A DNA stretch of 64,000 nt, taken from Geothrix sp. 21YS21S-2 (GTDB taxonomy: Bacteria > Acidobacteriota > Holophagae > Holophagales > Holophagaceae). The stretch's first letter is position 1; every line of letters begins with the position of its first letter. The stretch spans positions 2,514,001 to 2,578,000 of the forward strand of contig NZ_CP132910.1 in NCBI RefSeq assembly GCF_030846775.1, given 5' to 3'. Positions 26,638 through 43,515 of the stretch are shown piece by piece. The notes below the pieces were generated by a model. That model did no database searches. It saw only the letters and a program-made list of their open reading frames with translations, and was not told the origin of the DNA. A program made the position numbers and the translations under genes.

Positions 26638-27769
26638 ACCGGAACCGCCTGATCAGCACGTAGACCGGCAGCGCGAGGAGCAGCCCCAGCAGGGGCCCCA
26701 CCACCAGGGACCCCAGCAGCCACTCCCAGAGCCTCTGGGGGAATTCGGCGACCAGGCCCTGGCGGTTCCAGGCGGTCCACCAGCGCCCGTGGAGGAGCAG
26801 GTGCCCCGCCTGCACGCAGAGGAAGGGCACGAAGGGGGCCACGCAGACGTTGGAGGCGCCCATGCCGGCCAGCTTGTTGAGGTGCAGGCGGTGGTGCACG
26901 AAGGCGATGACCACCAGGCCGAAGGGGATGATGGGCAGGCTGCCCAGGAAGACGCCCAGCCCCGCCGCGGTGGCCAGCGCCGCGGGGCTGTCGTGCTCGG
27001 TGGCAAGGGTCCGCAGGAAGGCCCGGGGCGACGCCAGGGCCCGCCGGGCCTCTCCGGCCAGGGGCGGCCCCTGGCGATGGAACAGGGCGCGCACGACCAG
27101 GAACGTGTGGAGCGCGGTGAGCCGCAGGTTGTCCCGGAAGGCCCGGAAGTGGGAGACGCGCTCGCGGCCGGGCTGGTAGAGGACCCGGATGGGGGCCTCC
27201 ACGATGGCCAGGCCCGCCCAGGCCCCGCGCACCAGGACCTCCACCTCGAAGGCGTAGCGCCGGGAGCGGAACCGGCATCCGGTGAGGAACGCCACGGGGT
27301 AGACCCGGAAGCCGCTCTGGGTGTCGCGCAGGTCGCGCCCGCACTCCAGGCGGACCCAGAAGTTGGAGAAGGCGCGGCCGAAGCGGCTGGACCCGGGCAC
27401 CTCCGGGCCGTCCATGGCGCGCACGCCGATGGCGATGGCGGGCCAGTGCGCCGCGGCGGCGGCGATGAGCGCCGGGGCGTCGGCGGGGTAGTGCTGTCCG
27501 TCGGCGTCGATGGAGAGCAGGGCCCCGAAGCCCTCGGCCGCGGCCGCCCGGGCCCCGGCCAGGAGCGCGGCGCCCTTGCCCTGGTTGGGCTCCAGGCGGA
27601 GGGTGCGCACGGGGAGGTCCGCCACCCGCTCCAGGGCGCCGTCGCGGCTGCCGTCGTCCACCACCAGCACGGGCAGCCCCTGGCCGAGCAGCCCCTCCAC
27701 GACCCCGCGCAGGGTGGCGGCGTGGTCGTACACCGGCACCACCGCCAGGACGCGGGGCGCCTCAGTCAT
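26606..27769 (-). CDS. GT2 glycosyltransferase with DUF2062 membrane domain
   Basis: 387 residues. Residues 1 to about 240 are a GT-A family 2 transferase (VVPVYDHA, VVDDGSRDG, SIDADGQHYP as the DxD site). Residues about 275-375 are a DUF2062 membrane domain (LATAAGLGVFLGSLPIIPFG plus further helices). DUF2062-linked GT2 proteins occur in polyene and lipid-glycan clusters. The enzyme would transfer a sugar to a polyprenyl or polyene lipid at the inner membrane. It overlaps the upstream deacetylase gene by 8 bases, so both are co-translated. Confidence 0.88.
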   Translation of the reverse strand: MTEAPRVLAVVPVYDHAATLRGVVEGLLGQGLPVLVVDDGSRDGALERVADLPVRTLRLEPNQGKGAALLAGARAAAAEGFGALLSIDADGQHYPADAPALIAAAAAHWPAIAIGVRAMDGPEVPGSSRFGRAFSNFWVRLECGRDLRDTQSGFRVYPVAFLTGCRFRSRRYAFEVEVLVRGAWAGLAIVEAPIRVLYQPGRERVSHFRAFRDNLRLTALHTFLVVRALFHRQGPPLAGEARRALASPRAFLRTLATEHDSPAALATAAGLGVFLGSLPIIPFGLVVIAFVHHRLHLNKLAGMGASNVCVAPFVPFLCVQAGHLLLHGRWWTAWNRQGLVAEFPQRLWEWLLGSLVVGPLLGLLLALPVYVLIRRFRSTGKAAPRTW

Positions 27770-29213
27770 GGGAAGGGCCCGGCCAGCGCCCCTCCACTTC
27801 CAGGATCATGCCGCCCCGGCCGAAGAGCTTGAGGAGGTGCCCCTCGGCGCGCACGGTCTCGATGCCCGCCGCGCCCAGGAGCCGGACCACTTCCCGCCGG
27901 GAGCGGGACTTGAGCCAGATGCCCTGGCGCAGCGCGTTGCCCACCTGGGTCCAGAACCGCAGGAAGGACGTGCGCGCGGTGATGAAGTACACGGGGGCGC
28001 CGGGCTCGAGGTGGGGCGCCAGGCGCCGGAAGAAGGCCGGCAGGTCCTGGAAGTACTCGAAGACGAGGAAGGAGAAGACGGCGGCGTAGGGGCCCTCGAA
28101 GGCAAAGGACTCCGCGTCCCCCTCCAGGGCGCGGATGTTCGTGACGCCCGCGGCCGCGGCCTTGCGCTCCAGGTGGCGCAGCATGTTCCCGGAGAGGTCC
28201 ACGGCGTGCACCTCCGCGCAGCGCCGGGCCAGCTCCAGGGTGAAGATGCCCGTGCCCGCGCCCAGTTCCAGCACGGTGCCCCGCCCCCGGAGGAGGTCGG
28301 GGAGGCGCCTGCGGAAGAGCTCGAGTTCCAGGTTCCGGCTCAGGGCCACGGCGGTGCCGAACTGCTCCTGGTCGTAGGTGCCGGCGAGGTCGTCGTAGAA
28401 GCTTTCGGCGGCGCCCTGGGTCTCCAGGCCGCGCTGCATCAGGGCCCGGCCCAGGAGCGCGGACGGGGGCACCACCTCCAGGCCCCGCTCGCCCAGTCCG
28501 CGCACCACGGCCTCCAGCTCCCCCAGCAGCTCGTCCACGGTGGCCCGGGTGGGCCTCACGTCGTGCAGGAGGATCAGGTCCCCGGGCCGGACCTTGTCCA
28601 GGATGCGCCGGGCCAGGCCCGGCACCCGGCGGTTGCCCTGGTCCAGGGCCCGGCAGCTGAAGTTCACGCAGAACATGCCGTGGTCCAGGAGCACCGGCCA
28701 CAGCCGGGAGCTGGTGATCCCCACCGGCGGCCGGAAGGCCCGGGGCAGGATGCCGAAACCCTTGAAGATCTCCTGGGCCCGGGCCACCTCCTCGCGGAGG
28801 ATCTTCTGGCCCCGGAGCATGAGCATCGGGAAGTGGTGCCAGCTGTGGCTGCCGACCTCATGGCCCCGGGCGAGGATGTCGCGCACGAGGTCCGGGTTCG
28901 CCTCGGCCTTGGCGGCCACCAGGAAGAAGGCCGCCTTCAGGCCGTGGCGGTCCAGGAGGTCCAGGACCGCGGGGGTCGCCGCGGGATCCGGCCCGTCGTC
29001 GAAGCTCAGCGCCACGCGGGGCGACCTGCGGCTGCCCCGGGACAGGATGGGCAGGAAGAAGCCGAAGCGCGGCAGGAAGGGGGCCACCCCGCAGAGGAGG
29101 ACGAAGAGGGCCAAGGGCAAAGCGGCCAATCGAACGTCCACGAAAAGCAGGAGGAAAGCCAGCTGGAACGCGGTGAGGGCCGCCAGGTGGGCCACGGTCA
29201 GGGGGAAGCGCAT
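27762..29213 (-). CDS. Fusion of NodB-type polysaccharide deacetylase and SAM methyltransferase
   Basis: 483 residues. Residues 1-45 hold two hydrophobic segments. Residues about 60-250 are a NodB carbohydrate-esterase 4 domain: VALSFDDGPD, HEVGSHSWHHF (metal His pair), FRPPVG and LILLHDV. Residues about 270-475 are a class I methyltransferase (VLELGAGTGIFTLEL, HAVDLSGNML, FSFLVFEYFQDL). One protein could thus N-deacetylate a sugar and methylate the product, or methylate the polyene itself. The gene is divergent from the first radical SAM gene over a 67-base spacer with AT-rich -10-like sequences. Confidence 0.88.
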   Translation of the reverse strand: MRFPLTVAHLAALTAFQLAFLLLFVDVRLAALPLALFVLLCGVAPFLPRFGFFLPILSRGSRRSPRVALSFDDGPDPAATPAVLDLLDRHGLKAAFFLVAAKAEANPDLVRDILARGHEVGSHSWHHFPMLMLRGQKILREEVARAQEIFKGFGILPRAFRPPVGITSSRLWPVLLDHGMFCVNFSCRALDQGNRRVPGLARRILDKVRPGDLILLHDVRPTRATVDELLGELEAVVRGLGERGLEVVPPSALLGRALMQRGLETQGAAESFYDDLAGTYDQEQFGTAVALSRNLELELFRRRLPDLLRGRGTVLELGAGTGIFTLELARRCAEVHAVDLSGNMLRHLERKAAAAGVTNIRALEGDAESFAFEGPYAAVFSFLVFEYFQDLPAFFRRLAPHLEPGAPVYFITARTSFLRFWTQVGNALRQGIWLKSRSRREVVRLLGAAGIETVRAEGHLLKLFGRGGMILEVEGRWPGPSHD

Positions 29214-29280: not shown

Positions 29281-30630
29281 ATGAGTCGAATCCTCCTAGT
29301 CTCCGCCAATCTGACCCTGGAGCCCTACCCGGTCTACCCCCTGGGGATGGCGGTGGTGGCGGGGTCGCTGGCCGCGCGGGGCCACCTGGTGGAGCAGTTC
29401 GACTTCCTGGCCGCGGGCGCCTCGGCGGCCGCCTTCACGGCGCGCGTGCGCGATTTCGGCCCGGACTTCCTGGGCATCTCCATGCGCAACCTGGACACCT
29501 GCGATTCCCTGGTGGATTCAGACTACCCGGCCGTGGCGCGGCGCCTGGTGGAACTGGCCCGGACCTGCACGGACGCCCCCGTCATCCTGGGGGGCCCGGC
29601 CTTCACGATCCTGCCTGAGGCGATCCTCGCCTACACGGGCGCCGACCACGGCGTCGCCGGCGAAGGGGAGGGCGCGGCGGCGGACCTGGTGGAGGCCCTG
29701 GCCGCGGGCCGGACGATGCCCCGCATCCACCGCAATGCCGGCCTGGCCCCGGAGATGGCGGCCCCGCGCTACGACGAGGCCATCGTGCGCTTCTACCAGG
29801 AGGCCTCGGGTCTCCTGAACATCCAGACCAAGCGGGGCTGCTCCCACCAGTGCGTCTACTGCAACTACCCGGCCCTGGAAGGGTCGGCCTACCGCGCGCG
29901 GGACCCGCGCGCCGTCGTCGACGACCTGGAGGAGGCCCACGCCCGCTTCGGCCAGGCCGACTTCTTCATCGCCGACGCGGTGTTCAACGACCACGGCGGC
30001 CAGCACATGGAGGTGGTCGAGGAGCTGCTGCGCCGCGCGCTGCCCATAAGGTGGTCCTGCTACATGCGCCCCAGCCTGCTGCGCGAAACGGACCTGCGCC
30101 TCATGGCCAGGGCCGGCCTGCGCGCCGCCGAACTGGGCACGGACGCCACCACCGACGCGACCCTGCGGGCCCTGGGCAAGGGCTTCACCTTCGACGAGGC
30201 GGTGGAGGCCAACGAGCTCTTCGTGGCCTGCCGCGTCCCCTGCGCGCACTTCGTGATGTTCGGCGGGCCCGGGGAGACCGAGGCCACGGTCGCCGAGGGC
30301 CTGGCCAACCTGCAGCGGCTGCGCAGAACCGCGGTCTTCGCCTTCTCGGGCATCCGCATCTTCCCCGCCACCGCCCTGCACCGCCTGGCCCTGCTGGAGG
30401 GCAAGGTGGGGCCGGACACCGACCTGCGCGAGCCTGTCTACTACCACGCCGCCGGTGTGGACGTCAGGGCCATGGAGGCCCGCATCGAGGCGGCCTTCCG
30501 GGGCCACAGGGACCGGTTCTTCCCGCCCGAGCGGGGCCGGGAGCGCATGACGGCCCTGCAGGCCATGGGGTTCCGGGGGCTCATCTGGGATTCCCTCATC
30601 CGCTACCCGAAGGATGCGCAGCCGTGCTGA
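29281..30630 (+). CDS. B12-binding radical SAM protein 1
   Basis: 449 residues. Residues 1-150 are a cobalamin-binding Rossmann domain (ILLVSANL at the N-terminus; VILGGPAFTILPEAIL; GVAGEGEGA) without the DxHxxG motif, as is usual in this group. The radical SAM core follows, with C187, C191 and C194 (CSHQCVYC) for the 4Fe-4S cluster. Such enzymes methylate or rearrange unreactive carbons. The overall order resembles the B12-radical SAM proteins of lipid clusters proposed for ladderane formation; that link is a hypothesis. GTG of the next gene lies inside its last codons. Confidence 0.88.
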   Translation: MSRILLVSANLTLEPYPVYPLGMAVVAGSLAARGHLVEQFDFLAAGASAAAFTARVRDFGPDFLGISMRNLDTCDSLVDSDYPAVARRLVELARTCTDAPVILGGPAFTILPEAILAYTGADHGVAGEGEGAAADLVEALAAGRTMPRIHRNAGLAPEMAAPRYDEAIVRFYQEASGLLNIQTKRGCSHQCVYCNYPALEGSAYRARDPRAVVDDLEEAHARFGQADFFIADAVFNDHGGQHMEVVEELLRRALPIRWSCYMRPSLLRETDLRLMARAGLRAAELGTDATTDATLRALGKGFTFDEAVEANELFVACRVPCAHFVMFGGPGETEATVAEGLANLQRLRRTAVFAFSGIRIFPATALHRLALLEGKVGPDTDLREPVYYHAAGVDVRAMEARIEAAFRGHRDRFFPPERGRERMTALQAMGFRGLIWDSLIRYPKDAQPC

Positions 30631-32075
30631 ACTACCGGAAGATCCTCCTCATCCATCCGCTCGGGTACCGCGCCGGCGCCGCCGGGCAGGACATCTCCCG
30701 GGTCGCCAACCTCATGCCGCCCCTGGGGCTGGCGAGCCTGGCGGCGTACCTGGACGCCCGGGGCATGGAAACCGCGATCATCGACTGCTTCGCGAACCCG
30801 GATTCCGACGGCCTCATCGAGGCGCACCTTCGCGCCGAGCGCCCGGGCTTCGTGGGCTTCAGCTGCACCACCTCGAGCTTCCTGGACGGCGTGCGCATCG
30901 CGGAGCTGGCCAAGCGGGCCTGCCCCGGGGTCCTGAGCGTCTTCGGGGGGCCCCACATCTCGGCCCTGAAGGAGCGCCTGCTGCGGGAGTACCCCGCCAT
31001 GGACTTCGCCGTGGCCGGCGAGGGCGAGGAGACCCTGCGCGAGCTGATGGACGGCGGCTTCGAGACGCCGGCCCAGGTGCGGGGCCTCATCTGGCGGGAC
31101 GGCCCGGACGGGGACATCCGCTTCAACGGCTACCGGACCGGGCTGGAGCTGGACAGCCTCCCCTTCCCCGCCTACGGCAAGCTCGCGGGTTTTCCGGGCG
31201 CCTACAAGCTGCCCATCTTCAACTACCCCACCGTCCCCAACACCAGCTGCATCTCCAGCCGGGGCTGCCCCTACGCGTGCTCCTACTGCGACCGGAGCGT
31301 GTTCCAGCGCAGCTTCCGGTCCAACTCGGCGGAGTACCTCTACGACCACATGCGCATGCTGCGCGGGCGCTTCGGCATCCGCCACATCAACTTCTACGAC
31401 GACCAGTTCACCCTGGACCGCCGGCGGGTGGAGCGGCTCACGGACCGGCTCCTGGCCGAACCCCTGGGGATGACCTTCAACTGCGCCGTGCGGGCCGAGC
31501 ACATCGACCCGGACCTGGTGGGCCGCATGAAGCGGGCCGGGTGCTGGATGATGAGCCTGGGTATCGAGACCGGCGACGCCGAGCTCCTGGCCCGGCACCG
31601 CCAGAACCCCGACCTCGAACACCTGGCCGGAAAGATCCGCACCATCAGCGCCGCGGGCATCCGCACCAAGGGCCTGCTCATGATCGGGCTCCCCGGGGAG
31701 ACCGAGGCCAGCATCCGCCGCAGCATGGACTACGTCTTCTCCCTGCCCGTGGACGACTTCAACCTCGCCAAGTTCACGCCCTTCCCCGGTTCGCCCATCT
31801 ACGACGGCATCCGCGAGCTGGGGGACTTCGACGAGGACTGGGAGAAGATGGACTGCATGAACTTCCAGTTCGTGACCCGCGGCATGACCCGGGAGCGGCT
31901 GGAGGAGCTGTTCCGGGAGTTCTACGAGCGGCACTTCAAGCGGCCCAAGGTGCTGTGGGGCTACGTCACCATGCTCTGGCGTTCCCCCGACAGCTGGCTT
32001 CGCTTCCTGGCCGGACTGGGGAGCTTCCTGCGCTTCACCCGCTCCACCCGGCGCATGATGGCACGGGAGGACTAG
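30624..32075 (+). CDS. B12-binding radical SAM protein 2 (BchE-like)
   Basis: 483 residues from GTG 30624, overlapping the upstream gene by 7 bases. A B12-binding domain fills residues 1-165 (NLMPPLGLASLAAYLDARG, VFGGPHIS, VAGEGEETLRELM), then a radical SAM core with C215, C219 and C222 (CPYACSYC), and a DUF4080/BchE-like C-terminal part. Homologues insert methyl groups or do oxidative carbon chemistry. It ends one base into the acyltransferase start (TAG/GTG overlap), so the whole cassette is coupled. Substrate unknown, probably the polyene chain or its lipid anchor. Confidence 0.88.
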   Translation: MLNYRKILLIHPLGYRAGAAGQDISRVANLMPPLGLASLAAYLDARGMETAIIDCFANPDSDGLIEAHLRAERPGFVGFSCTTSSFLDGVRIAELAKRACPGVLSVFGGPHISALKERLLREYPAMDFAVAGEGEETLRELMDGGFETPAQVRGLIWRDGPDGDIRFNGYRTGLELDSLPFPAYGKLAGFPGAYKLPIFNYPTVPNTSCISSRGCPYACSYCDRSVFQRSFRSNSAEYLYDHMRMLRGRFGIRHINFYDDQFTLDRRRVERLTDRLLAEPLGMTFNCAVRAEHIDPDLVGRMKRAGCWMMSLGIETGDAELLARHRQNPDLEHLAGKIRTISAAGIRTKGLLMIGLPGETEASIRRSMDYVFSLPVDDFNLAKFTPFPGSPIYDGIRELGDFDEDWEKMDCMNFQFVTRGMTRERLEELFREFYERHFKRPKVLWGYVTMLWRSPDSWLRFLAGLGSFLRFTRSTRRMMARED

Positions 32076-32989
32076 TGGAGCCCGGCCGGATCGAGTGGCG
32101 GATTCGAGGCATCGGAACCCGGTGGCAGCTGGGCTTCTTCCACGGGCTGATCCGGCTGGCGGGGCGGTCCGTGGCCTACGCCCTGGCGGACCTGGTGAGC
32201 CTCTACTACACCCTCACCCGGCCTTCCATCCGCCATCGGTGCCGGCCGTACCTCGCCCACCGGTTCCCCGGGCGCACCGGGCTCCGGCGCCTGGTGGACA
32301 CCTTCCGCCTGAGCCGCACGTTCGCGCGGCTCATGGTGGACCAGGCCGCCCAGCGGATCCTGGGCCGGGGGGAGTTCATCACCCACCTGCGGGGCCGCGC
32401 GGACCTGGCGGCCCTCCTCGCCGAAGGCCGGGGCCTGGTCATCGTCACCGCCCACGTGGGGGCCTGGCAGCTGGGCATGGCCAACCTCGCCCACCTGGAC
32501 CGCCCCATCTCCGTGCTGGCGCGGTTCGACGCGGGGGACGCCAGCTCCCCCTTCCAGGCCTTCGCCGGCCGCGACTTCCGGATCATCGACCCGGAGGCCT
32601 TCCTGGGCGGCGTCCCGGACATGCTGGGCGCGCTGCAGCGCGGCGAGGTCCTGTGCCTCATGGGGGACCGGGCCTGGGGCGCCAGCGGCGGCACCGTGGC
32701 GGTGGACTTCCTGGGCGGCCCGGTGCCGCTGCCCTTCACCGCCTACAAGCTGGCCTCGGCCACCGGGGCGCCCGTGGCGGTGCTCTTCCCCTTCAAGCCC
32801 GGTCCGGACCAGTACGAGATGCAGCTGGCCGCCGTGGTCCGCGTCCCGCCCGGCCTGGGACGGGCCCCGGAGGCCTACCTCCCCTACGCCGCCGCCTACG
32901 CCCAGGCCCTGGCGGGCTTCCTGGACGCCTATCCCTACCACTTCTTCAACTTCTTCGACCTGTGGGCCGGAGAGACCGGCCCCCGGTGA
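32075..32989 (+). CDS. LpxL/HtrB-like lipid acyltransferase
   Basis: 304 residues from GTG 32075, sharing one base with the stop of the radical SAM gene. Residues 30-55 are hydrophobic; the acyltransferase motif is TAHVGAWQ, with H127 but Gln132 in place of the usual Glu/Asp of the HxxxxE/D motif. Later blocks (LMGDRAWG, DFLGGP) match the LABLAT family. Such enzymes occur in polyene clusters and probably transfer an acyl or aryl-polyene chain to a lipid anchor. The Gln replacement could lower activity or mark a special donor. Confidence 0.82.
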   Translation: MEPGRIEWRIRGIGTRWQLGFFHGLIRLAGRSVAYALADLVSLYYTLTRPSIRHRCRPYLAHRFPGRTGLRRLVDTFRLSRTFARLMVDQAAQRILGRGEFITHLRGRADLAALLAEGRGLVIVTAHVGAWQLGMANLAHLDRPISVLARFDAGDASSPFQAFAGRDFRIIDPEAFLGGVPDMLGALQRGEVLCLMGDRAWGASGGTVAVDFLGGPVPLPFTAYKLASATGAPVAVLFPFKPGPDQYEMQLAAVVRVPPGLGRAPEAYLPYAAAYAQALAGFLDAYPYHFFNFFDLWAGETGPR

Positions 32990-32999: not shown

Positions 33000-34163
33000 A
33001 TGCGCTTCCTGATCCTGCCGGGCAGCAACGCCCTGTCCCACCTCGCCAAGGGCCTGGCCCTGCGGGAGGCCCTCCTGGCCAGGGGCCACGAAGTGGCCTT
33101 CGCCACCACCCCGGCCCGCTCCCCCTTCCTGGCGGAACTGGGCGTGCCCCACCACCTGCTGCCCGACCTGCAGGAGGCCGACCAGGGGTCGGCCCCGGCC
33201 TACGCCTGGTTCCGCCAACCCGAGCGGTTCCTCCGGGTGGTCCAGGCGGAGCGGGCGCTCATGGCCGAGGTGCGGGCCCAGCGGGTCGTGGGCGTCTTCC
33301 GGTTCACGGCCACCACCTCCGCGGCCCTGGCGGGCCTGCCCTGCGACACCCTGGCCTGCGGCTGCATGATCCCGGCCTTCCGGGGCGTCCTGGGGTTCGG
33401 GGAGGGCGAGCCGGGGGCGGCCGAACAGGGGGTGTTCCTGGAGGCCTTCTTCCGCGGGGCGGCCCGCCGGGTGTCCATGGCCCTGGGGGCCCTGGGCCGG
33501 CCGGCCGTGCAGGATGCGCGCGCCCTCCTGCTGGGCGGCCGCACCTTCCTGTGGGACACCCCCGGCTTCCAGCCCCTGGCCGCCTCGGAAGGCCTGGAAC
33601 ACGTGGGCCCCCTGGCCTGGAATCGCTGGCCCCGGGCGGGCGGGGCGGTTCCCGGCGCGCCCCTGGCCGTCCTCTCCATGGGCACGGCCCTGCCCCCGGG
33701 CGCGGGACCCGCCCGACTCCTTGATAGGCTGCTGGCCCTGGGCTACCGGGTCGCCCTGGCCGGCGGGGGCCACCCGGCTCCGGACCGGAACGACCCGCGC
33801 ATCACCGCCTACACCTACGCCCCCATGAACGGCCTGCTGGAGCGGGCCGCCCTCCTCGTCTGCCACGGAGGCCAGCAGACCGTCTTCGAGGCCCTGGCCC
33901 ACGGCGTGCCCGTGGGCGTCTTTCCCTTCCACCCGGAACAGGCCCAGAACGGGCTCTGCCTGGAGCGGCTGGGGGCTGGCGCCCGGCTGGTTCCCCCCAC
34001 GGTCTTCTGGGGGTCCAGCGACGTCTATGCCCGGGCCCTGGAGGCCATGGACGATGCGGAGCTGGACGCCCGCATCCTCGCCCTGCGGGACCTGACCGCC
34101 CGCACCCCGGACCCGGGCCTGGACCGGGGAGCCGAACGTCTGGCGGAACGGCTGGAGACCTGA
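33000..34163 (+). CDS. GT1-family glycosyltransferase
   Basis: 387 residues with GT-B architecture. The N-terminal half begins MRFLILPGSNALSHLAKGLAL; the C-terminal half has APMNGLLERAALLVCHGGQQTVFEALAHG, the UDP-sugar-binding region of UGT/macrolide-type glycosyltransferases (HGG motif). It would glycosylate a hydroxyl of a lipophilic product, here probably the polyene. Its start lies 10 bases after the acyltransferase gene; its stop overlaps the fusion gene by one base. Confidence 0.86.
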   Translation: MRFLILPGSNALSHLAKGLALREALLARGHEVAFATTPARSPFLAELGVPHHLLPDLQEADQGSAPAYAWFRQPERFLRVVQAERALMAEVRAQRVVGVFRFTATTSAALAGLPCDTLACGCMIPAFRGVLGFGEGEPGAAEQGVFLEAFFRGAARRVSMALGALGRPAVQDARALLLGGRTFLWDTPGFQPLAASEGLEHVGPLAWNRWPRAGGAVPGAPLAVLSMGTALPPGAGPARLLDRLLALGYRVALAGGGHPAPDRNDPRITAYTYAPMNGLLERAALLVCHGGQQTVFEALAHGVPVGVFPFHPEQAQNGLCLERLGAGARLVPPTVFWGSSDVYARALEAMDDAELDARILALRDLTARTPDPGLDRGAERLAERLET

Positions 34164-35848
34164 TGCGCATCCTCCTGGTGCACGGCTACACCGGATCCCC
34201 CGCGGATCTCGCGCCCCTGGCCGAGGCGCTGGACGCGGTCCTCGGGCCCGGGCACACCCGGCTGGCGGCCCTCCATCCCCGGTGGCGGGGCGGCCCGCCG
34301 CCGCCCTTCGACCGGGAGGCCTTCCTGGCGCTCCTGAGAGCCGAAGCCGAAGGCGGCCGTCCCCTGGTGGTGATCGGCCACTCCACCGGTGGCACCCTGG
34401 CCCTCCTGGCCCGCCTCGAACCCGACCTCCTGGTCCTCCTGGGCACCCCGCCCCGGGTGGGCCTGGACCACCTGGCGCGCCTCCAGGCCGCCACCCGCCC
34501 CGGAAACGAGGCGCCCGGGCTCCTGGATCTCGCCCGGCTGGTAAAGGCCGTCAACGAGGCCGGCGCCGCGGGTCTTCCGCCCGGGACCCTGGTGGTGCAT
34601 GGGGAGGCCGATCCCCTGGTGCCCCCCGAGGACCTGGCGCACTGGGGCCCGGCGGCGCGGCCGGTAGGGGTGCCGGGGGCCGGGCACCACCTGCCGGCGG
34701 CCCCGGTCCTGGCCGCGATCCTCGAAGCCCTGCCCCCCGCCCTCACCGGCCCCGACCAGGAACGGCTCCGGCTCCTGGAACCCCAGGTGGCCCGCTTTGC
34801 CGATCGGGTGCCCGGGGGCTGGCAGGTCCTGGGCCGGAGTCCTTCGGCCCGGCGGGCCCTGAGGCCCGGGACGGGCCTGCCGCCGGACCTGGGACCGTTG
34901 GCCCCGCCCCCGGTGCTGGCCAACCTCGAGGTCACCACCCGGTGCCCCCACGCCTGCCCCTCCTGCGCCCGGGCCACGGGCGCCCCCCACCGGGGCGACC
35001 TGAACCGGTTCCAGGAGGTCCTGGACCGCCTGCCCCACGCCTCCCGCCTGACCCTGGTGGGCCTGGGGGAGCCCACGCTCCATCCGCGCCTGGCGGAACT
35101 GGTGGCCCTGGCCGCCGGGGAGGGCCGCGGCGTGGGCCTGGTGACCAGCGGCGCGGCCCTGACCCCGGACCTGGCCCGGAGCCTGGTCCAGGCCGGACTC
35201 GGGGGGGCCACCTTCAGCCTGGACGCGGGCGAGGCCGACCTGGCCGGGCGGCTGCGCCCCGGCGTGCCCTTCGCGCGGACCCTCGCCCACCTGACGGAGG
35301 CCGCCCGGATCTTCGGCGACCGGGTGCCCCGGGCGGTGTTCACCGCCGTGGGCACGGCCAACGCCCGGCACCTCGCTCCCGTGGCGGACCTGGCCCTCGC
35401 CCTGGGCGCCCGGGCCTGGATGCTGTCGGACCTGAACTTCGACGCCAACCGGGACCGTTCCCTGGCCGGGGCCGCCACCGGGGAAGACCGGACGGCCATC
35501 CGGGAGGCCGTGGACGGGGCCATGGCCGCTGGTCTGCCCGTTCTGCACGTGCGCGGACTGGAGGAACTGGGCAAGCCCTTCCGTCTGCGGGAGCTGCTCC
35601 TGCGCCCGGTGGACGCGCTTTGGAGCCGAAGCCCCGGCCACGCCAACTGCCTGTCCCCCTGGCAGACCCTCGCCCTGGGCGCCGACGGCACGGTCACGGC
35701 CTGCGATTGCCAACCCGGTGAGGAGGTGGGCAACCTCTTCGAAACGCCGTTCCAGGCCCTGTGGAACGGCCCGGGCATGGTCCGCCTGCGGCAGGAGCTG
35801 CTCGCCGGGACGCCGCGGGCGGCGTGCCGCCACTGCCCCCGGCTCTGA
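34163..35848 (+). CDS. Alpha/beta-hydrolase fused to a radical SAM-SPASM enzyme
   Basis: 561 residues. Residues 1 to about 195 are an alpha/beta-hydrolase (ILLVHGYTGSP; nucleophile elbow GHSTGG with Ser74; Asp150 in GEADP; His175/176 in GAGHHLP). Residues about 250-480 are a radical SAM core with C261, C265 and C268 (CPHACPSC). Residues 490-561 are a SPASM/twitch-type domain with C496, C514, C516, C555 and C558 (NCLSPWQT..., GTVTACDC, CRHC), which holds extra 4Fe-4S clusters. An esterase/thioesterase active site joined to a radical enzyme is unusual. It could release or transfer an acyl product and modify it in one step; substrate unknown. It ends the coupled cassette begun at 29281. Confidence 0.88.
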   Translation: MRILLVHGYTGSPADLAPLAEALDAVLGPGHTRLAALHPRWRGGPPPPFDREAFLALLRAEAEGGRPLVVIGHSTGGTLALLARLEPDLLVLLGTPPRVGLDHLARLQAATRPGNEAPGLLDLARLVKAVNEAGAAGLPPGTLVVHGEADPLVPPEDLAHWGPAARPVGVPGAGHHLPAAPVLAAILEALPPALTGPDQERLRLLEPQVARFADRVPGGWQVLGRSPSARRALRPGTGLPPDLGPLAPPPVLANLEVTTRCPHACPSCARATGAPHRGDLNRFQEVLDRLPHASRLTLVGLGEPTLHPRLAELVALAAGEGRGVGLVTSGAALTPDLARSLVQAGLGGATFSLDAGEADLAGRLRPGVPFARTLAHLTEAARIFGDRVPRAVFTAVGTANARHLAPVADLALALGARAWMLSDLNFDANRDRSLAGAATGEDRTAIREAVDGAMAAGLPVLHVRGLEELGKPFRLRELLLRPVDALWSRSPGHANCLSPWQTLALGADGTVTACDCQPGEEVGNLFETPFQALWNGPGMVRLRQELLAGTPRAACRHCPRL

Positions 35849-35946: not shown

Positions 35947-36201
35947 ATGCCCCCCAAGACCCAGGAAGAGATTCTCCAGTGGGTCCGCTCCGCCCTGAAG
36001 ACGAACTTCCATCTGGACCCGCGCTCCGTGCGCATGGACTCGAACCTCTTCACCGACCTGGGCCTGGACAGCATCGACGAGGTCGAGCTGGCCCAGCACA
36101 TGCAGGAGTACACCGGGCGCCGCCTGGCGCCGGAGGAGTTCCGGGTGCTGTGCACCGTGGAGGACGTGGTGGTCTCCGTGCAGAAGATGCTGGAAGCCTG
36201 A
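35947..36201 (+). CDS. Acyl carrier protein, polyene cluster (second)
   Basis: 84 residues with FTDLGLDSIDEVELAQHMQE; Ser42 carries the phosphopantetheine arm. It resembles the aryl-polyene ACP pair (ApeE/ApeF type). It is followed after 5 bases by the AMP-ligase gene, which may load its aryl starter onto this ACP. Confidence 0.92.
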   Translation: MPPKTQEEILQWVRSALKTNFHLDPRSVRMDSNLFTDLGLDSIDEVELAQHMQEYTGRRLAPEEFRVLCTVEDVVVSVQKMLEA

Positions 36202-36206: not shown

Positions 36207-37511
36207 ATGGGGCGCCTTGCGGGCCTTTTCGCGGAGGACCGGCCGCAGGCCTCGGTGGTGGCCCTCACGGGCCAGGGACCCCGCACCTTCGGGGAGCTGG
36301 CCCGGGGCGCCGCGACGGCGGCCGGGAAGGCCGCGGCGGGGGGCCGCTGGCTGCTGGCCTGCGAGGACCCCTTCGCCTTCGCGGCGGGCTTCCTGGGCCT
36401 GGTCCAGGCCGGGTGCGTGCCCGTTCTTCCCCCCAACCTGCTGCCGGGAACCCTGGAGGCCCTGAAGGCCGACGGCCTCCTCCGGGACGCGGACCTGGCC
36501 GCGCCCGCGGACGCCCTGCCGCCGCCCCGCGTCCTGGCGGACGTGCCGGTGGAGTTCTGGACGTCCGGGAGCACCGGCGCCCCCAAGCAGGTCCTGCGGC
36601 GCTTCCAGGATCTGGACCGGGAGGTGGAGATCCTGGAAGGGCTCTTCGGCCCGCTCCCGGGAACGGTGGCCGGCACGGTGCCCCACCTGCACATCTACGG
36701 CTGCCTGTTCCGGGTCTTCTGGCCCCTGGCCACGGGGCGGCCGTTCCTGTCGGAGCCCTGCGGGGATCCGGCCCGGTTCCTGGCCGTGATGGCCTCCCGG
36801 CCGGTGCTCGTGAGCAGCCCCGCGCACCTCGCCCGGCTGCCCAGGCTGCTGGATCTGGGCGGCCTGGACCTGCCGGCGGTGTTCTCCTCCGGGGGCGCCC
36901 TGGGCCGGGAGGACGCCCTGGCCTGGCGGGCCGCGGCCCCCGGCGGGGTGGTGGAGGTGTACGGCAGCACCGAGAGCGGCGGCATCGCCTGGCGGAACCC
37001 CGGGCCCGATCCCGCCTCCTCGCGGTGGACCCCCTTCCCCGACATGGCCCTGGCCGCCGCGGAGGACGGCGCCCTGCTCCTGCGCTCGCCACGGGTGGAA
37101 GCCGGGGGCCTGCGCATGGAGGACGCCGTTTCCCTGGAGGCCGACGGCCGGTTCACCCTGCTGGGGCGCCTGGACCGCGTGGTGAAGATCGAGGAGAAGC
37201 GGGTCTCGCTGCCCCAGGTGGAGGAGGCCCTCAAGGCCCATCCGCTGGTGCGGGACGCGGCGGTGGTGGTGCTGGAGGGCCGGCGCCGGATGCTCGGGGC
37301 GGCCGTGGTTCTGGCCGGAGCGGCGGACCTGGAGGACCCGGCGGCGCGCCGCGCGCTGTCCGATCGCCTAGGCGCCCATCTGGCGGGCACGCTCGAGGGG
37401 CCTGCCCTTCCCCGGCGGTGGCGCTTCGTGGCGGAACTGCCCAGGGACGCGCGGGGCAAACTGCGGGCCGAGGACCTGGCCGGCCTTTTCACCCCCTCGG
37501 GTAATGCCTGA
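36207..37511 (+). CDS. AMP-dependent acyl/aryl-ACP ligase
   Basis: 434 residues, short for the ANL superfamily but with all key blocks: P-loop TSGSTGAPK (119-127), YGSTESGGIAW, the hinge LGRLDRVVKIEEKRV and a C-terminal ARGKLR with the catalytic Lys. It would activate an aromatic acid with ATP and pass it to an ACP, as the ligase of aryl-polyene clusters does. ATG 36207 lies 5 bases after the ACP stop; a longer reading frame overlapping the ACP is rejected. Confidence 0.9.
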   Translation: MGRLAGLFAEDRPQASVVALTGQGPRTFGELARGAATAAGKAAAGGRWLLACEDPFAFAAGFLGLVQAGCVPVLPPNLLPGTLEALKADGLLRDADLAAPADALPPPRVLADVPVEFWTSGSTGAPKQVLRRFQDLDREVEILEGLFGPLPGTVAGTVPHLHIYGCLFRVFWPLATGRPFLSEPCGDPARFLAVMASRPVLVSSPAHLARLPRLLDLGGLDLPAVFSSGGALGREDALAWRAAAPGGVVEVYGSTESGGIAWRNPGPDPASSRWTPFPDMALAAAEDGALLLRSPRVEAGGLRMEDAVSLEADGRFTLLGRLDRVVKIEEKRVSLPQVEEALKAHPLVRDAAVVVLEGRRRMLGAAVVLAGAADLEDPAARRALSDRLGAHLAGTLEGPALPRRWRFVAELPRDARGKLRAEDLAGLFTPSGNA

Positions 37512-37573: not shown

Positions 37574-37837
37574 ATGACCACCGTCAATCCCACCCGGGAC
37601 GAGATCCTCACGCAGCTGAGGACCATCCTCGCCAGTTCCTTCGACCTGGCCCCGGAGCGCATCACCCTGGAGGCGCATCTTTTCACCGACCTCGATCTGG
37701 ACAGCATCGACGCCGTGGAGCTCGCCATCCAGCTGCAGGAGATCACCGGGCGGCGGGTGAAGGCGGAGGAGTTCAAGCACGTGCGCACGGTCGCGGACGT
37801 GGTGGAAGCGGTCCACCAGATGCTCCAGGTCAAATGA
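37574..37837 (+). CDS. Acyl carrier protein, polyene cluster (third)
   Basis: 87 residues with FTDLDLDSIDAVELAIQLQE, Ser44. It is closely similar to the second ACP, suggesting duplication, and together they form the starter/extender ACP pair typical of aryl-polyene clusters. Its stop overlaps the dehydratase start by 4 bases (ATGA). Confidence 0.92.
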   Translation: MTTVNPTRDEILTQLRTILASSFDLAPERITLEAHLFTDLDLDSIDAVELAIQLQEITGRRVKAEEFKHVRTVADVVEAVHQMLQVK

Positions 37838-38187
37838 GGTTCCCCGGAAGCGCCCGGGCCATGCCAGCCGGGCCCGACGGCAGCATCACCTTCGCCCTGG
37901 ACCTGGACCCCGGCCTGCTGGGCTTCCAGGGGCACTTCCCGGGGAACCCGATCCTCCCCGGCGTCGTGCAGGTGGACTGGGCCGTGCATTTCGGGATGGA
38001 GGCCTTCGGCCCCCTGGGCGCGTTCCGGGGCGTCGAGCACCTGAAGTTCATGAACGTCATCCGGCCCGGCGAGGACCTCACGCTCACCCTCGCCCTGGAC
38101 CCCGCGCGGGAAAACCTCAAGTTCAGCTTCCAGGACGGTGCCGGCCGGAAGGCCGCCGGCATCCTCCGCTTCCAGGGAAACGCCTAG
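37834..38187 (+). CDS. Hotdog dehydratase, FabZ/ApeI-like
   Basis: 117 residues with the FabZ/FabA-like helix motif GFQGHFPGNPILPGVVQVDW, in which His34 is the expected base. It would dehydrate 3-hydroxyacyl-ACP intermediates during polyene chain growth. Coupled to the ACP upstream; the ammonia-lyase gene starts immediately after its stop. Confidence 0.85.
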   Translation: MRFPGSARAMPAGPDGSITFALDLDPGLLGFQGHFPGNPILPGVVQVDWAVHFGMEAFGPLGAFRGVEHLKFMNVIRPGEDLTLTLALDPARENLKFSFQDGAGRKAAGILRFQGNA

Positions 38188-39717
38188 ATGGGCGCCGTCA
38201 CCGTGGGCCTCGCGCCGCTGCGCATCGAGGACGTGGTGGACGTCGCCACGGGGTCCCGGTCCCTGGCCCTGGCCCCGGATCCGGCCTTTCGCGCGCGCAT
38301 CCAGGCCGGGGCGGCCATCCTGGCCGGCCTGCTGGAAGGCGGCACCGAGGTCTACGGCGTCACCACCGGCTACGGGGACTCCTGCACCACCGCCGTGCCG
38401 GCTTCGCTGGTCCCGGAGCTGCCCACCCACCTCACCCGGTACCACGGCTGCGGCCTGGGCCGGATCCTCGACGAGGACGAGACCCTGGCCGTCCTCGTGG
38501 CGCGCCTCAATTCCCTGGCCCAGGGCTTTTCCGGCGTCCGGTGGGAGCTGCTGGAGGCCCTGGAGGGCCTCGTGGCGCACCGGGTGCTGCCCCGGATCCC
38601 CGCCGAGGGCTCCGTGGGCGCCAGCGGCGACCTGACCCCCCTCTCCTACGTGGCGGCCACCCTCATCGGCGAACGGGAGGCCACCTTCCGCGGCGAGGCG
38701 CGGCCCGCCCGGGAGGCCCTGGCCGAGGCGGGCCTGGCCCCCCTGCGCCTGGCCCCCAAGGAGGGCCTGGCCCTCATGAACGGCACAGCGGTCATGACCG
38801 GGCTGGCCTGCCTCGCCTTCCACCGGGCCTCGTACCTGGAGCGCTTCTGCTGCCGGCTCACGTCCCTGGCCGTGGCGGCCCTGCGGGGCAACCGGGACCA
38901 CTTCCACCCCCGGCTCTTCGCGCTCAAGCCCCACGCGGGGCCCCAGGCCGCCGCAGCCCGGATCCACGCCGACCTGGGCGGACCCGCCGAGGACCAGGCG
39001 GTGCGCCTCCAGGACCGCTACTCCATCCGCTGCGCGCCCCACGTCATCGGCGTCCTGGGCGACGCCCTCGCCTGGATCCGCCGGGACGTGGAGAACGAGC
39101 TCAACAGCGCCAACGACAACCCCCTGCTGGATCCCGGCGACGGGCTCCTGCTTCACGGCGGGCACTTCTACGGCGGGCACATCGCGTTCGCCATGGACGG
39201 CCTCAAGACCGCCGTGGCCAACCTGTCGGACCTCATGGACCGCCAGCTGGCGCTGCTGGTGGACGCCCGCTACAACAACGGCCTCCCCCAGAACCTCTCG
39301 GGGTCCCTGGGCCCCCGGGCCGCCATCAACCACGGCCTCAAGGCGGTGCAGATCGGCGCCAGCGCCTGGACCGCCGAGGCCCTCAAGCTCACGATGCCCG
39401 CCTCGGTCTTCTCCCGTTCCACGGAGTGCCACAACCAGGACAAGGTGAGCATGGGCACCATCTCCGCCAGGGACGCCCTGCGGGTGCTCGAACTGACGGA
39501 GCAGGTGGCCGCGGCCCTCGCGCTGGCCGTGGTGCAGGGCCTGCGCCTGCGGGAGCGCCAGGGCGACGCGGCGGTGGAACGGCTCGGGCCGGGCGCGAAA
39601 TCCTTCCTGGAGTCCTTCGCCTGGCTCCCCTTCCTGGACGAGGACATCGCCCTGGACACCACCCTGCGGTCCCTCATCGCCGCCATCCGGAACCAAGCCT
39701 GGAGCCTCTACCCATGA
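38188..39717 (+). CDS. MIO-dependent aromatic amino acid ammonia-lyase
   Basis: 509 residues, the length of bacterial HAL/TAL. The MIO prosthetic group forms from A145-S146-G147 in GSVGASGDLTPLSY. The catalytic Tyr56 lies in YGVTTGYGDS, a variant of the HutH form YGINTGFG; NSANDNPL and QDKVSMGT are also present. The substrate-selectivity pair is Tyr85-His86 (RYHGCGLG), unlike HutH (Ser-His) or R. sphaeroides TAL (His-Leu). No hut genes are near, and the gene sits between dehydratase and thioesterase genes, as in flexirubin clusters. It most likely makes cinnamate or 4-coumarate as the polyene starter. Tyr versus Phe is undecided. Confidence 0.9.
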   Translation: MGAVTVGLAPLRIEDVVDVATGSRSLALAPDPAFRARIQAGAAILAGLLEGGTEVYGVTTGYGDSCTTAVPASLVPELPTHLTRYHGCGLGRILDEDETLAVLVARLNSLAQGFSGVRWELLEALEGLVAHRVLPRIPAEGSVGASGDLTPLSYVAATLIGEREATFRGEARPAREALAEAGLAPLRLAPKEGLALMNGTAVMTGLACLAFHRASYLERFCCRLTSLAVAALRGNRDHFHPRLFALKPHAGPQAAAARIHADLGGPAEDQAVRLQDRYSIRCAPHVIGVLGDALAWIRRDVENELNSANDNPLLDPGDGLLLHGGHFYGGHIAFAMDGLKTAVANLSDLMDRQLALLVDARYNNGLPQNLSGSLGPRAAINHGLKAVQIGASAWTAEALKLTMPASVFSRSTECHNQDKVSMGTISARDALRVLELTEQVAAALALAVVQGLRLRERQGDAAVERLGPGAKSFLESFAWLPFLDEDIALDTTLRSLIAAIRNQAWSLYP

Positions 39718-40133
39718 AACCCATCCTCACCGGCGAGACCGTCCTCGAGGTGCCCTTCCACGACGTGGACGCCATGGGCGTCGCGTGGCACGGCCACTAC
39801 GTCAAGTACCTGGAGATCGCCCGCACCGCCATGATGCGCCAGGTGGGCCTGGACTGGCAGCAGATGAAGGACTGGGGCGTCATCTGGCCCGTGGTCACCT
39901 GCAACCTGAAGTACATCCGCCCCCTGAAGTACGGCCAGAGCGTGCGCGTCCAGTGCAGCCTCCTGGAGTACCAGCAGCGGATCCGCATCACCTACCTGCT
40001 CTCCGACGCCCTCACAGGCGAGCGCGTCAACAAGGCCGAGACCGTCCAGCTGGCGGTGGATTCGGCCACCGGCGAGCTGCTGTTCGAATGCCCCAGGGTG
40101 CTCACCGAGGCCCTGGAAGGGGCCCAGGCATGA
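39714..40133 (+). CDS. Hotdog acyl thioesterase (4HBT type)
   Basis: 139 residues with the 4-hydroxybenzoyl-CoA thioesterase pattern FHDVDAMGVAWHGHYVKYLE, the first Asp region being catalytic. It starts on ATGA overlapping the lyase stop and ends on ATGA into the LolA-like gene. It may release or edit acyl chains from the ACPs, as ApeL-type proteins do. Confidence 0.88.
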   Translation: MKPILTGETVLEVPFHDVDAMGVAWHGHYVKYLEIARTAMMRQVGLDWQQMKDWGVIWPVVTCNLKYIRPLKYGQSVRVQCSLLEYQQRIRITYLLSDALTGERVNKAETVQLAVDSATGELLFECPRVLTEALEGAQA

Positions 40134-40726
40134 GGCGCGCCGCCTGGCTCGTCCTTGCCCCCGCCCTGTGCGCCCAGACGGTGCCCGAGGCGCTCACGGC
40201 CCACCTGAAGGCCACCTCGATCCTGCACGCGGACTTCACCCAGACCCGCAGGCTCGCCGCGCTCTCGCGCCCCCTGAAATCCTCCGGCAGCCTCGTGGTC
40301 TCGCGGGAGCTTGGCGTGCTGTGGCGCATGGCCAGGCCCCTGCCGCTGACCGTGGCCGCCGGTCCCAAGGGCGTCCTGGAAGTGGACGGCGCGGGCCGGA
40401 GGACGCTCCGGACCGCCAAGGACACCCCCATGGTGGCCCGCATGGGCGAGATCATGAAGTCGCTCCTCGAGGGCCGGTGGAGCGCCCTGGACGGGCTCTT
40501 CACCGTCAAGGGCGAGTCCGGCAAGGACGGCGCCTGGACCATCCTGCTGACCCCCGCGCCCCAGACCGCGGCCTTCATCAAGGCCGTGCGCATCCGCGGC
40601 GCCGCCTTCATCGAGACCATCCACGTGGATGAGCCCTCGGGCGATTCCATGGACCTGACCTTCCTCAATTTCCGCCCCGAGGTACCGCTCACGGCCGAGG
40701 AACGGCGCCTCCTGGCGTTCGAGTAG
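40130..40726 (+). CDS. LolA-like outer-membrane lipoprotein carrier
   Basis: 198 residues with a short signal peptide (LAPALCAQ) and a LolA-type beta-half-barrel (LKATSILHADFTQTRRL, GVLWRMARPLPL). Aryl-polyene clusters carry such a protein next to the MMPL exporter, probably to carry the lipid product across the periplasm. It is 3 bases from the exporter gene. Confidence 0.85.
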   Translation: MRRAAWLVLAPALCAQTVPEALTAHLKATSILHADFTQTRRLAALSRPLKSSGSLVVSRELGVLWRMARPLPLTVAAGPKGVLEVDGAGRRTLRTAKDTPMVARMGEIMKSLLEGRWSALDGLFTVKGESGKDGAWTILLTPAPQTAAFIKAVRIRGAAFIETIHVDEPSGDSMDLTFLNFRPEVPLTAEERRLLAFE

Positions 40727-40729
40727 CCG

Positions 40730-42994
40730 GTGCGCGCCCGCGGCTGGATCTGGATGGCGCTGCTGGCGGGCCTGGCGGTCTTCGCCGGCCTGCGCCTGGC
40801 CTCGGGCCGGGCCATGGAGACCGACCTCCTGGCCATGCTCCCGGAGACCGAGAAGAACCCCGTGGCCGAACAGGCCATCCAGACCCTGACCCGCACCACC
40901 CAGGAGCGCATCGTCCTCCTGGTGCGCGGCGCGGACCCCGCCGACAGCAGGGCCGCCGCCCTGGCCCTGGCCCGGGACCTGGAGGCCGCCCGGGTCTTCC
41001 AGGACGTCTCCTGTGAGCTGCCCCCCATCGACCCCGGCGAGCTGGTGCGCTTCTACGCCCCCTACCGGTACCGCCTGGCGGCCCCGGAACTCCCCTCCGG
41101 GGATCTCGCCCCCGCCATCCAGGCCCGCCTGGTCTCCCCCATCTTCTCCGGCATGCCGCCGCACCTGGATCCCCTGGGGGCCTTCGGGGGCTTCCTCTCG
41201 AGCCTGCCCTTCCAGTCCACGGGCCTCGAGCTCCGGGACGGGCTCCTGGCCGTGACGGCCCCCGACGGCCTCCACGTGATGGTCACCGCCGGCCTGCGGG
41301 GCTCGGCCTTCGACCCCGCGGTCCAGGCCCGCAGCCTGCGCGCCGTGGACGCGGCCGCCGCGCGCATGGCCCGCCCGGGCCGCCAGCTCCTGCGCACCGG
41401 CGTCATGTTCTACGCGGCCGACGCGCGCCTCAGCGCCGAGCGGGAGATGAACCTCATCAGCCTCCTGTCCACCCTGGGCATCGTCGGCCTCTTCGCCCTG
41501 ACCTTCCGCTCCGTGCGCCACCTGGCCCTGGGCCTGCTCTGCGTGGCCGCGGGGCTCGTGTCGGCGGTCGCCGTCTGCCTCCTGATCTTCGGCAAGCTCT
41601 TCCTCCTGACCCTGGTCGTCGGCTGCACCGTCATGGGCGTGGCGGTGGACTACGCGTTCCTGTACTTCGCCCACCACCTGGGCGCGGGGGAGGCCTGGGA
41701 ACCCGGGCCGGCCCTGCGGCGCATCCTCCCCGCCCTGCTCCTGGGACTGGTCACCAGCCTCCTGGGCTACGCGGCGCTCCTGGCCGCGCCCTTCCCGGGC
41801 CTGCGCCAGATCGCGGTGTTCTCCATGGTGGCGCTGGCGGGTTCCTTCCTCACGGTCCTGCTCGTCCTGCCCTCCCGGCTCGCGGCGCCCATGCCCCCCC
41901 GGCCCGCCCTGGGGGCCGCCCTGGCCCGCGTCCTGGCGCGGATCCAGGCCTGGTCCGGGCACCGCCGCACGCCCCTGGCCGTGGCCGCGGCCGTCCTGGT
42001 GCTGGGCGCCGGCGCGTCCCTGTCCCGGGTGGACGACGACGTGCGGGGCCTCATCCTGCCGTCCCAGGCCCTTCGCCGGGACGAGGCCCGCATCCAGGAG
42101 CTGCTGAAGATCTCCACCGCCGGGGCGTTCTTCCTGGTGGAAGGCGCCGACGAAGGCCAGGTGCTGGCCCGGGAGGAGGCCCTTCGCGCGCGCCTGCCCA
42201 TCCCCGGGGTGGCGGGCCTCATGGCCGTCTCGGCCTTCGTGCCCTCCCCGGCGAGCCAGGAAGCCGCCCTCGCCCGCAACCGGGAGGTCCGGCCCGCCCT
42301 GGCCAGGGGCATGCTGGACGCGGGCTTCCGGCCCGAGGCGGTCGCGTCGGCCCAGGAGGCCCTGGGAACGGGCCCCCTGACCGTGGAGGCCTACCTGGCC
42401 ACGCCCTTCTCCATCCCCCTGCGGCAGTTCTGGCTGGGCCGCACCCGACACGGGTACGCCTCGGTGGTCCTGCCCACCGGCGCCCCCGAGTCCGCCGCCC
42501 TGTCCCGGGCCTGCGTGGGCCTGCCGGGCGTGACGCTGGTGGACAAGGCGTCAAGCGTCACCGGCCTGCTGGCCCACTACCGCCGGGTGGCCGCCTGGGC
42601 CCTGGCCGGCGCGGTCCTCCTGGTGGGCCTGCTCCTGGGCGCCTGGTACGGCGCCGCGACGAGCCTGCGGCTCCTGGCGCCGGCCCTCCTGGGGATGCTG
42701 GCCGCCCTGGCCGCGGGGGCGGCCCTGGGCTTCCCCTTGAACCTCTTCACGATCATGGCGCTCATCCTGAGCCTGGGCCTGGGGGTGGACTACACCGTCT
42801 TCCTGCGGGAGCGCGACGCCGCGGGGACCTCCGCCCTGCTGGGCGTGGTCCTGGCCAGCGGCAGCACCCTGATATCGTTCGGCCTCCTCGCCATAAGCCA
42901 CACCCCCAGCCTGCGCGCCTTCGGCGTCACCCTGGCCATGGCGGTGCTGGTGGCCACGCTCACGTCCTTCCTGGCCCTGGGGGAGCGCGCATGA
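40730..42994 (+). CDS. MMPL/RND-type lipid exporter
   Basis: 754 residues from GTG 40730. About twelve membrane helices are arranged as two halves, each with a periplasmic loop between TM1 and TM2 (RASGRAMETDLLAMLPETE-like start; VVGCTVMGVAVDYAFLYFAHH and LSLGLGVDYTVFLRERD in the TM4 regions hold the proton-relay Asp residues). It would move the finished polyene lipid across the inner membrane by proton motive force. Coupled to the lipoprotein gene by ATGA. Confidence 0.93.
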   Translation: MRARGWIWMALLAGLAVFAGLRLASGRAMETDLLAMLPETEKNPVAEQAIQTLTRTTQERIVLLVRGADPADSRAAALALARDLEAARVFQDVSCELPPIDPGELVRFYAPYRYRLAAPELPSGDLAPAIQARLVSPIFSGMPPHLDPLGAFGGFLSSLPFQSTGLELRDGLLAVTAPDGLHVMVTAGLRGSAFDPAVQARSLRAVDAAAARMARPGRQLLRTGVMFYAADARLSAEREMNLISLLSTLGIVGLFALTFRSVRHLALGLLCVAAGLVSAVAVCLLIFGKLFLLTLVVGCTVMGVAVDYAFLYFAHHLGAGEAWEPGPALRRILPALLLGLVTSLLGYAALLAAPFPGLRQIAVFSMVALAGSFLTVLLVLPSRLAAPMPPRPALGAALARVLARIQAWSGHRRTPLAVAAAVLVLGAGASLSRVDDDVRGLILPSQALRRDEARIQELLKISTAGAFFLVEGADEGQVLAREEALRARLPIPGVAGLMAVSAFVPSPASQEAALARNREVRPALARGMLDAGFRPEAVASAQEALGTGPLTVEAYLATPFSIPLRQFWLGRTRHGYASVVLPTGAPESAALSRACVGLPGVTLVDKASSVTGLLAHYRRVAAWALAGAVLLVGLLLGAWYGAATSLRLLAPALLGMLAALAAGAALGFPLNLFTIMALILSLGLGVDYTVFLRERDAAGTSALLGVVLASGSTLISFGLLAISHTPSLRAFGVTLAMAVLVATLTSFLALGERA

Positions 42995-43515
42995 GACTCG
43001 CCCTGCTGCTGGCCCTCGTCCTGACGGGCTGCGCCTTCAAGCCCTCCCTGCCCTACACGCTCCAGCCCGCGGCCACGGGGCCGGCCTACTTCGCGAACCA
43101 GGAGGTGGTGTTCCGCCGGCCCGGCGCCAGCCCCGAGCGGCTCCTCACCGCGGTGGAGAACGACGGCCGCCGCCTCTCCGTCGTCGCCTCCTCCCCCATG
43201 GGCCAGACCCTCTTCGTCCTCACGGTGGAAGGCGGCCCCGCGGTCCTGGACGCCCGCGTGCCCCTGCCGGCCTCGTTCGACCCCAACCTCCTCCCCGCCC
43301 TCATCCAGCTCAGCGACTGGCCCCTGGAGGAAGCCCGCAAGGGCCTGGCTCCGGGCATGGAGCTGCGGGAGGCCGGCCCCCTGCGCACCCTCCTGCGCAG
43401 GGGCAGGCCCCTGCTCACCCTGGACCGGCAGGGCCCCGCGCCCCCGTACCGCACCATCGAGCTGCGGGTGCCCCCCATGGACCTGGAAGCCACCATCACC
43501 ACCCTGGACGACTGA
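42991..43515 (+). CDS. DUF3261 outer-membrane lipoprotein
   Basis: 174 residues with a lipobox LTGC (Cys14) in the signal peptide and a small beta-rich domain. This family (DUF3261) is a marker of aryl-polyene clusters and is thought to receive the product at the outer membrane. Starts 4 bases inside the exporter gene and ends one base into the next. Confidence 0.85.
   Translation: MRLALLLALVLTGCAFKPSLPYTLQPAATGPAYFANQEVVFRRPGASPERLLTAVENDGRRLSVVASSPMGQTLFVLTVEGGPAVLDARVPLPASFDPNLLPALIQLSDWPLEEARKGLAPGMELREAGPLRTLLRRGRPLLTLDRQGPAPPYRTIELRVPPMDLEATITTLDD

Follow-up and report, generated by a model that had tools for sequence, protein, structure and literature searches.

A rare fusion of an alpha/beta hydrolase with a radical SAM enzyme, paired with a glycosyltransferase in an aryl-polyene/ladderane-type gene cluster of Holophagaceae

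The window analysed here, a stretch of 64,000 nucleotides from the complete, single-contig genome (5.25 Mb) of Geothrix sp. 21YS21S-2, a member of the Holophagaceae (Acidobacteriota), encodes a protein in which a small alpha/beta hydrolase is joined through a linker to a radical SAM core that precedes a C-terminal SPASM-type domain. This fusion is real and rare, and constitutes a new domain architecture that is made of known enzyme kinds and is located in a known kind of gene cluster. We propose, with middling confidence, that it is a bifunctional tailoring enzyme which, together with the GT1-type glycosyltransferase whose gene overlaps its own, forms a two-gene module that is optional to the aryl-polyene/ladderane-type cluster in which it lies. 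Few products of bacterial gene clusters are as widespread as aryl polyenes, whose tailoring and anchoring are poorly known.

Results

Architecture of the fusion protein

The gene at 34163-35848 (+) is a single uninterrupted open reading frame encoding 561 amino acids, with the start, stop and frame given by the initial annotation, which had proposed that a hydrolase is joined here to a radical SAM-SPASM enzyme in an order outside the standard families. The joining was borne out by Pfam, by the continuous frame and by the occurrence of the same fusion in three genomes, while the hydrolase-radical SAM-SPASM order appeared neither in the Pfam and NCBIfam results nor in any paper found. The Pfam matches for the radical SAM core (E 5.8e-13; 49.8 bits against a cut-off of 29.5) and for the SPASM domain (E 1.9e-9; 38.1 bits against 21.5) are above threshold, whereas that to Abhydrolase_6 over residues 3-178 (E 3.4e-5) falls narrowly below its gathering cut-off (25.1 against 26.3 bits). 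The motif contexts of the hydrolase are all consistent, as Ser74 lies in the nucleophile elbow GHSTGG (codon 34382-34384), Asp150 in GEADPLVPP (codon 34610-34612) and His175 in GAGHH (codon 34685-34687). The CxxxCxxC motif of the radical SAM core is represented by C261, C265 and C268 (codons 34943-34966), and five cysteines (496, 514, 516, 555 and 558) are found towards the C-terminus; a full two-cluster SPASM domain has seven, and the reduced or twitch-like set present here would be compatible with one auxiliary cluster rather than two. Since there are only five, we class the protein as a radical SAM enzyme with a SPASM-type domain and not as a full two-cluster SPASM enzyme. An AlphaFold model based on a two-sequence alignment (three fused sequences exist) had a mean pLDDT of 47.7 and gave no usable domain contacts; its secondary-structure order, with pLDDT of about 35-60 in the hydrolase region, would be in keeping with a radical SAM barrel preceded by an alpha/beta hydrolase. 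About 10 kb upstream the window also encodes a standalone alpha/beta hydrolase (UPF0227/Abhydrolase_6; 23316-23981, +), which is not close kin of the hydrolase half; recent duplication of this gene as the origin of that half was rejected, their similarity being confined to the nucleophile elbow.

Table 1. Features of the fusion gene and of the surrounding cluster
Feature	Position	Strand	Basis or remark
GT2-DUF2062 gene and polysaccharide deacetylase-methyltransferase fusion	26606-29213	-	Cluster-adjacent in G001, G002, G005, G021
B12-binding radical SAM, TIGR04072 ('ladder' lipid biosynthesis)	29281-30630	+	592.7 bits vs cut-off 360
Second B12-binding radical SAM enzyme	30624-32075	+	Pfam; AprD4 nearest solved
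Lipid A-type acyltransferase (ApeD/ApeJ-like anchoring enzyme)	32072-32989	+	PF03279 E 3.2e-9
GT1/MGT-like glycosyltransferase, obligate partner	33000-34163	+	Pfam UDPGT, Glyco_tran_28_C; MGT 3.2e-14
Fusion: alpha/beta hydrolase domain, N-terminal, residues 1-190	34163-34732	+	Pfam Abhydrolase_6; triad invariant in three homologues
Fusion: linker, residues 191-249	34733-34909	+	Lowest conservation of all segments
Fusion: radical SAM core, residues 256-383	34928-35311	+	PF04055; GLGEPTLHP motif; PqqE/BlsE/BtrN relatives
Fusion: SPASM domain, residues 496-559	35648-35839	+	PF13186; five Cys, invariant in homologues
Acyl carrier protein 1	35947-36201	+	PF00550
AMP-dependent aryl-acyl ligase	36207-37511	+	PF00501/PF13193; 4-coumarate-CoA ligase family 3.3e-36
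Acyl carrier protein 2	37574-37837	+	PF00550
ApeI-like dehydratase	37834-38187	+	PF22818 E 5.9e-14, above cut-off
Aromatic amino acid ammonia-lyase (starter supply)	38188-39717	+	PF00221 E 3.2e-154
ApeK-like 4HBT thioesterase	39714-40133	+	PF13279 E 3.1e-16
LolA-like, MMPL exporter, DUF3261 (three genes; outer-membrane delivery)	40130-43515	+	PF03548, PF11659; PF03176 E 3e-12
ApeP-like dehydratase, FabG-like ketoreductase (two genes)	43515-44674	+	PF22817 E 2.9e-23 (above cut-off); PF13561
Ketosynthase genes	44655-46570	-	PF13723, PF00109
Ketosynthase	46894-48159	+	PF00109/PF02801

Conservation and rarity of the fusion

Full-length fused homologues were identified in two other Holophagaceae, namely G001, of the same genus (64% identity), and G021 (45-47%), which was treated as the same record as JAFNAB010000056.1, a Holophagaceae MAG with an identical fusion protein, and counted once; the three fused sequences known in total thus belong to one family. 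Ser74, Asp150, His175, the three cysteines of the CxxxCxxC motif and the five C-terminal cysteines are invariant across all three, and neither active site has been lost in G001 or G021. The catalytic residues had been put forward as Ser74-Asp150-His175/176, and here the homologues discriminate: the serine, the aspartate and the first histidine stand, while His176 is replaced by Glu in one of the three, leaving His175 as the catalytic candidate. A comparison of codons across the three genomes established that every segment changes most at third positions. Conservation of the frame and of each half across these genomes, together with the greater variability of third positions, excludes chance or assembly error, and as G001 and G021 carry the same fusion with intact catalytic residues, frameshift and decay are both excluded; the concern raised initially, that two genes had been joined by a frameshift or assembly error, accordingly fails on the single reading frame, the complete genome, the three genomes and the codon-position pattern.

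The long linker is poorly conserved (58% identity to G001 and 33% to G021, against 48-65% in the domains), and fusions of operon neighbours are common, both of which would suit an explanation in which the fusion serves only the co-expression or stoichiometry of two pathway enzymes whose active sites take different intermediates and do not cooperate. Even at about 47% identity, however, the halves remain joined, and 396 Acidobacteriota genomes yielded no split version, an observation that fits either reading, and we regard mere co-expression as unlikely.

No further fused relatives were detected in 77 Holophagaceae, 93 genomes of the class or the 396 Acidobacteriota, where the other matches were standalone radical SAM proteins, nor in the viral contigs and plasmids scanned, and the hydrolase half alone had no other relative at E 1e-15 among the 396 genomes. 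When about 85,000 species were scanned with peptide patterns, the Holophagaceae MAG alone was returned; since this approach is limited to close relatives, more distant fusions may exist in other phyla. The closest standalone radical SAM-SPASM relatives (L075, at 8740-13922, L076 and L077) come from one genus of another Acidobacteriota family. The relative in L075 adjoins an arsenosugar-type glycosyltransferase of the TIGR04282 family, a GT2-like gene and a methyltransferase, and in the surroundings of these relatives glycosyltransferase-like genes, and no hydrolase, were recognised.

The surrounding cluster

The genes at about 26.6-48.2 kb include those expected of an aryl polyene cluster (ApeI/ApeP-like dehydratases, ligase, carrier proteins, ketosynthases and MMPL/LolA/DUF3261 export) as well as the TIGR04072 B12-radical SAM protein of ladderane-type clusters; phytoene-desaturase-like genes, a further ladderane-type trait, were not recognised among the cluster genes scanned in this interval. 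Because both sets of marker genes are present, the product is best described, from the genes alone, as an aryl-polyene/ladderane-type molecule. The location of a TIGR04072 protein amid ApeI/ApeP-like genes points to an apparent overlap of the two cluster types in Holophagaceae. At the edge of the cluster, the gene at 27762-29213 (-) is itself an unusual fusion, in one open reading frame, of a polysaccharide deacetylase (PF01522) and a class I methyltransferase (PF13649), and is kept beside the cluster in G001, G002, G005, G017 and G021. A large HEAT-repeat protein is encoded immediately after the last ketosynthase gene (48237-50783, +).

The glycosyltransferase-fusion pair

The glycosyltransferase encoded directly upstream of the fusion is nearest to YjiC and to oleandomycin-glycosyltransferase-type enzymes, and its stop codon overlaps the start of the fusion gene as TGATG in all three genomes. 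In G021 the pair sits elsewhere in the cluster, away from the ligase and carrier-protein region, and has kept the overlap, from which it follows that the two genes move as a unit. The glycosyltransferase is present in just four of the 77 Holophagaceae and the fusion in three of these four, while the remaining genome, G005, has a contig that breaks off within the glycosyltransferase gene; the chance that all three fusion genomes would fall among the four is 5e-5 by simple counting that ignores kinship. No ApeP-positive genome without the glycosyltransferase carries the fusion.

G002, a close relative, has kept the cluster, with genes 77-94% identical, and is without the glycosyltransferase, the fusion and the second B12-radical SAM enzyme. 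Its empty site between the acyltransferase and carrier-protein genes retains CTCTGATGTATACT, which corresponds to the end of the fusion gene and the bases that follow it. Loss in G002 is the simplest reading, as the more distant G001 has the full gene order; alternatively, some of the matching bases may represent an element upstream of the carrier-protein gene that has been conserved. All genomes that carry the glycosyltransferase also have the second B12-radical SAM enzyme, whose nearest solved relative, AprD4, is a sugar-directed enzyme; this second enzyme occurs, too, in the absence of the pair, in G004, G017 and G026, in two of which (G017 and G026) it lies within an uninterrupted run of the two radical SAM, acyltransferase and ketosynthase genes. 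A strict three-gene module is weakened by these three genomes, and the strict module is therefore taken to be the glycosyltransferase and the fusion.

This distribution also bears on an explanation in which the radical half modifies the ring or chain of the aryl-polyene aglycone and the hydrolase serves as a thioesterase that edits or releases the carrier-bound polyene, with the glycosyltransferase acting later and independently. In two genomes the fusion gene is directly followed by one for an acyl carrier protein (35947), its hydrolase belongs to the esterase/thioesterase superfamily, and the cluster has other radical SAM enzymes, one of them from a lipid-biosynthesis family, all of which would suit such a role. 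The cluster already possesses a dedicated 4HBT thioesterase, however, and both the relocated pair of G021 and the ApeP-positive genomes tie the fusion to the glycosyltransferase and not to the carrier protein, for which reasons we consider action on the aglycone somewhat unlikely.

Discussion

The initial annotation suggested that the hydrolase may release an acyl or ester product for the radical domain to modify, which would couple two steps. A two-step tailoring enzyme is plausible in light of the aryl-polyene cluster and the obligate glycosyltransferase partner, but the genomic context points to a glycosylated polyene as its substrate, a candidate which that annotation did not name. In the mechanism that we favour, an ammonia-lyase-primed aryl polyene would be assembled by the cluster on its acyl carrier proteins, and the glycosyltransferase would attach a sugar either to this polyene or to the lipid that anchors it. 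With the C-terminal auxiliary Fe-S cluster as a putative electron relay, the radical SAM half would employ a 5'-deoxyadenosyl radical to bring about oxidation or remodelling at a C-H position; the sugar is the likeliest site, by analogy with BlsE and with BtrN, the latter of which oxidises an aminocyclitol. The esterase-like half would cleave or transfer an ester of that molecule, such as a polyene acyl ester. More tentatively, and on balance doubtfully, the esterase and radical SAM-SPASM halves may work successively on a single glycosylated aryl-polyene or polyene-lipid substrate, perhaps with direct hand-over between the domains, so as to yield a radical-remodelled glycosyl aryl polyene, a type of product which to our knowledge occurs in no characterised aryl-polyene pathway.

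The relatives of each half inform this assignment to different degrees. The nearest solved relatives of the hydrolase half by sequence are the Bacillus-type monoacylglycerol lipase and Est30, which makes an acyl ester its likeliest target; as this half scores just below the Pfam cut-offs, its ester specificity is a guess. For the radical half the nearest solved structures are PqqE (E 6e-11), BlsE (E 9e-11) and BtrN. Kinship with BlsE and BtrN and the coupling to a glycosyltransferase suggest that the radical target is a sugar, an argument that is weak because PqqE, a peptide enzyme, matches as well as BlsE does; a sugar substrate is thus weakly supported, mainly by the glycosyltransferase partner. 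The same nearness of PqqE, along with the best NCBIfam matches of the radical half, the putative metalloenzyme maturases TIGR04311 and TIGR04317, might indicate an enzyme that matures a protein or peptide by introducing a crosslink or cofactor. We consider this highly improbable, given that the fusion protein reaches the NCBIfam cut-off of no named SPASM equivalog (at best 67.3 of 400 bits, for TIGR04311) and all maturase scores fall far short, that scanning of the cluster genes, unsystematic for small open reading frames, revealed no candidate precursor peptide or metalloenzyme, and that the gene is fixed within the polyene cluster.

The fusion adds a domain architecture that the searched databases and papers did not contain, and with its glycosyltransferase it provides a compact, testable two-gene module for the glycosyl and radical tailoring of a polyene. 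The module suggests an extra finishing step for an aryl-polyene pigment or lipid, and G002, as a sister species without the pair, offers a natural control for a comparison of products.

Among known enzymes, the cytosylglucuronate decarboxylases BlsE/MilG resemble the window protein in their radical SAM core and C-terminal Cys-rich auxiliary-cluster region, and in its own pathway BlsE acts after a glycosyltransferase-type enzyme, CGA synthase, decarboxylating the glucuronide which that synthase produces (PMC3715490). BlsE, however, belongs to a nucleoside antibiotic pathway and has no hydrolase domain, and the window protein attains only 34.2 of the 400 bits required for TIGR04466. The radical SAM and SPASM layout is shared by PqqE and other SPASM enzymes, which are equally near in sequence, whereas PqqE acts on a peptide without a hydrolase domain and the window protein scores 43 of the 381 bits for TIGR02109. 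The thermostable monoacylglycerol lipase and Est30 have in common with the hydrolase half the LLVHGxTGxP motif and the Ser nucleophile elbow, yet they are unfused, the window domain is shorter (about 190 amino acids) and the similarity is only distant. At the level of the cluster, the apeA-R genes of E. coli CFT073 likewise specify ApeI/ApeP, a ligase, carrier proteins, ketosynthases, a ketoreductase and a thioesterase, in addition to LolA-like, RND/MMPL and DUF3261 proteins, although a radical SAM enzyme and an ammonia-lyase are absent from that gene table and the sole glycosyltransferase is the ApeJ glycosyltransferase/acyltransferase, which is not described as GT1-type (PMC8253772). For the ladderane-type clusters of anammox bacteria and Desulfotalea, the available part of the published account does not mention a hydrolase-radical SAM-SPASM fusion, but it does describe B12-radical SAM, polysaccharide-deacetylase-like and glycosyltransferase genes such as those which accompany the fusion in the present cluster (PMC2649909).
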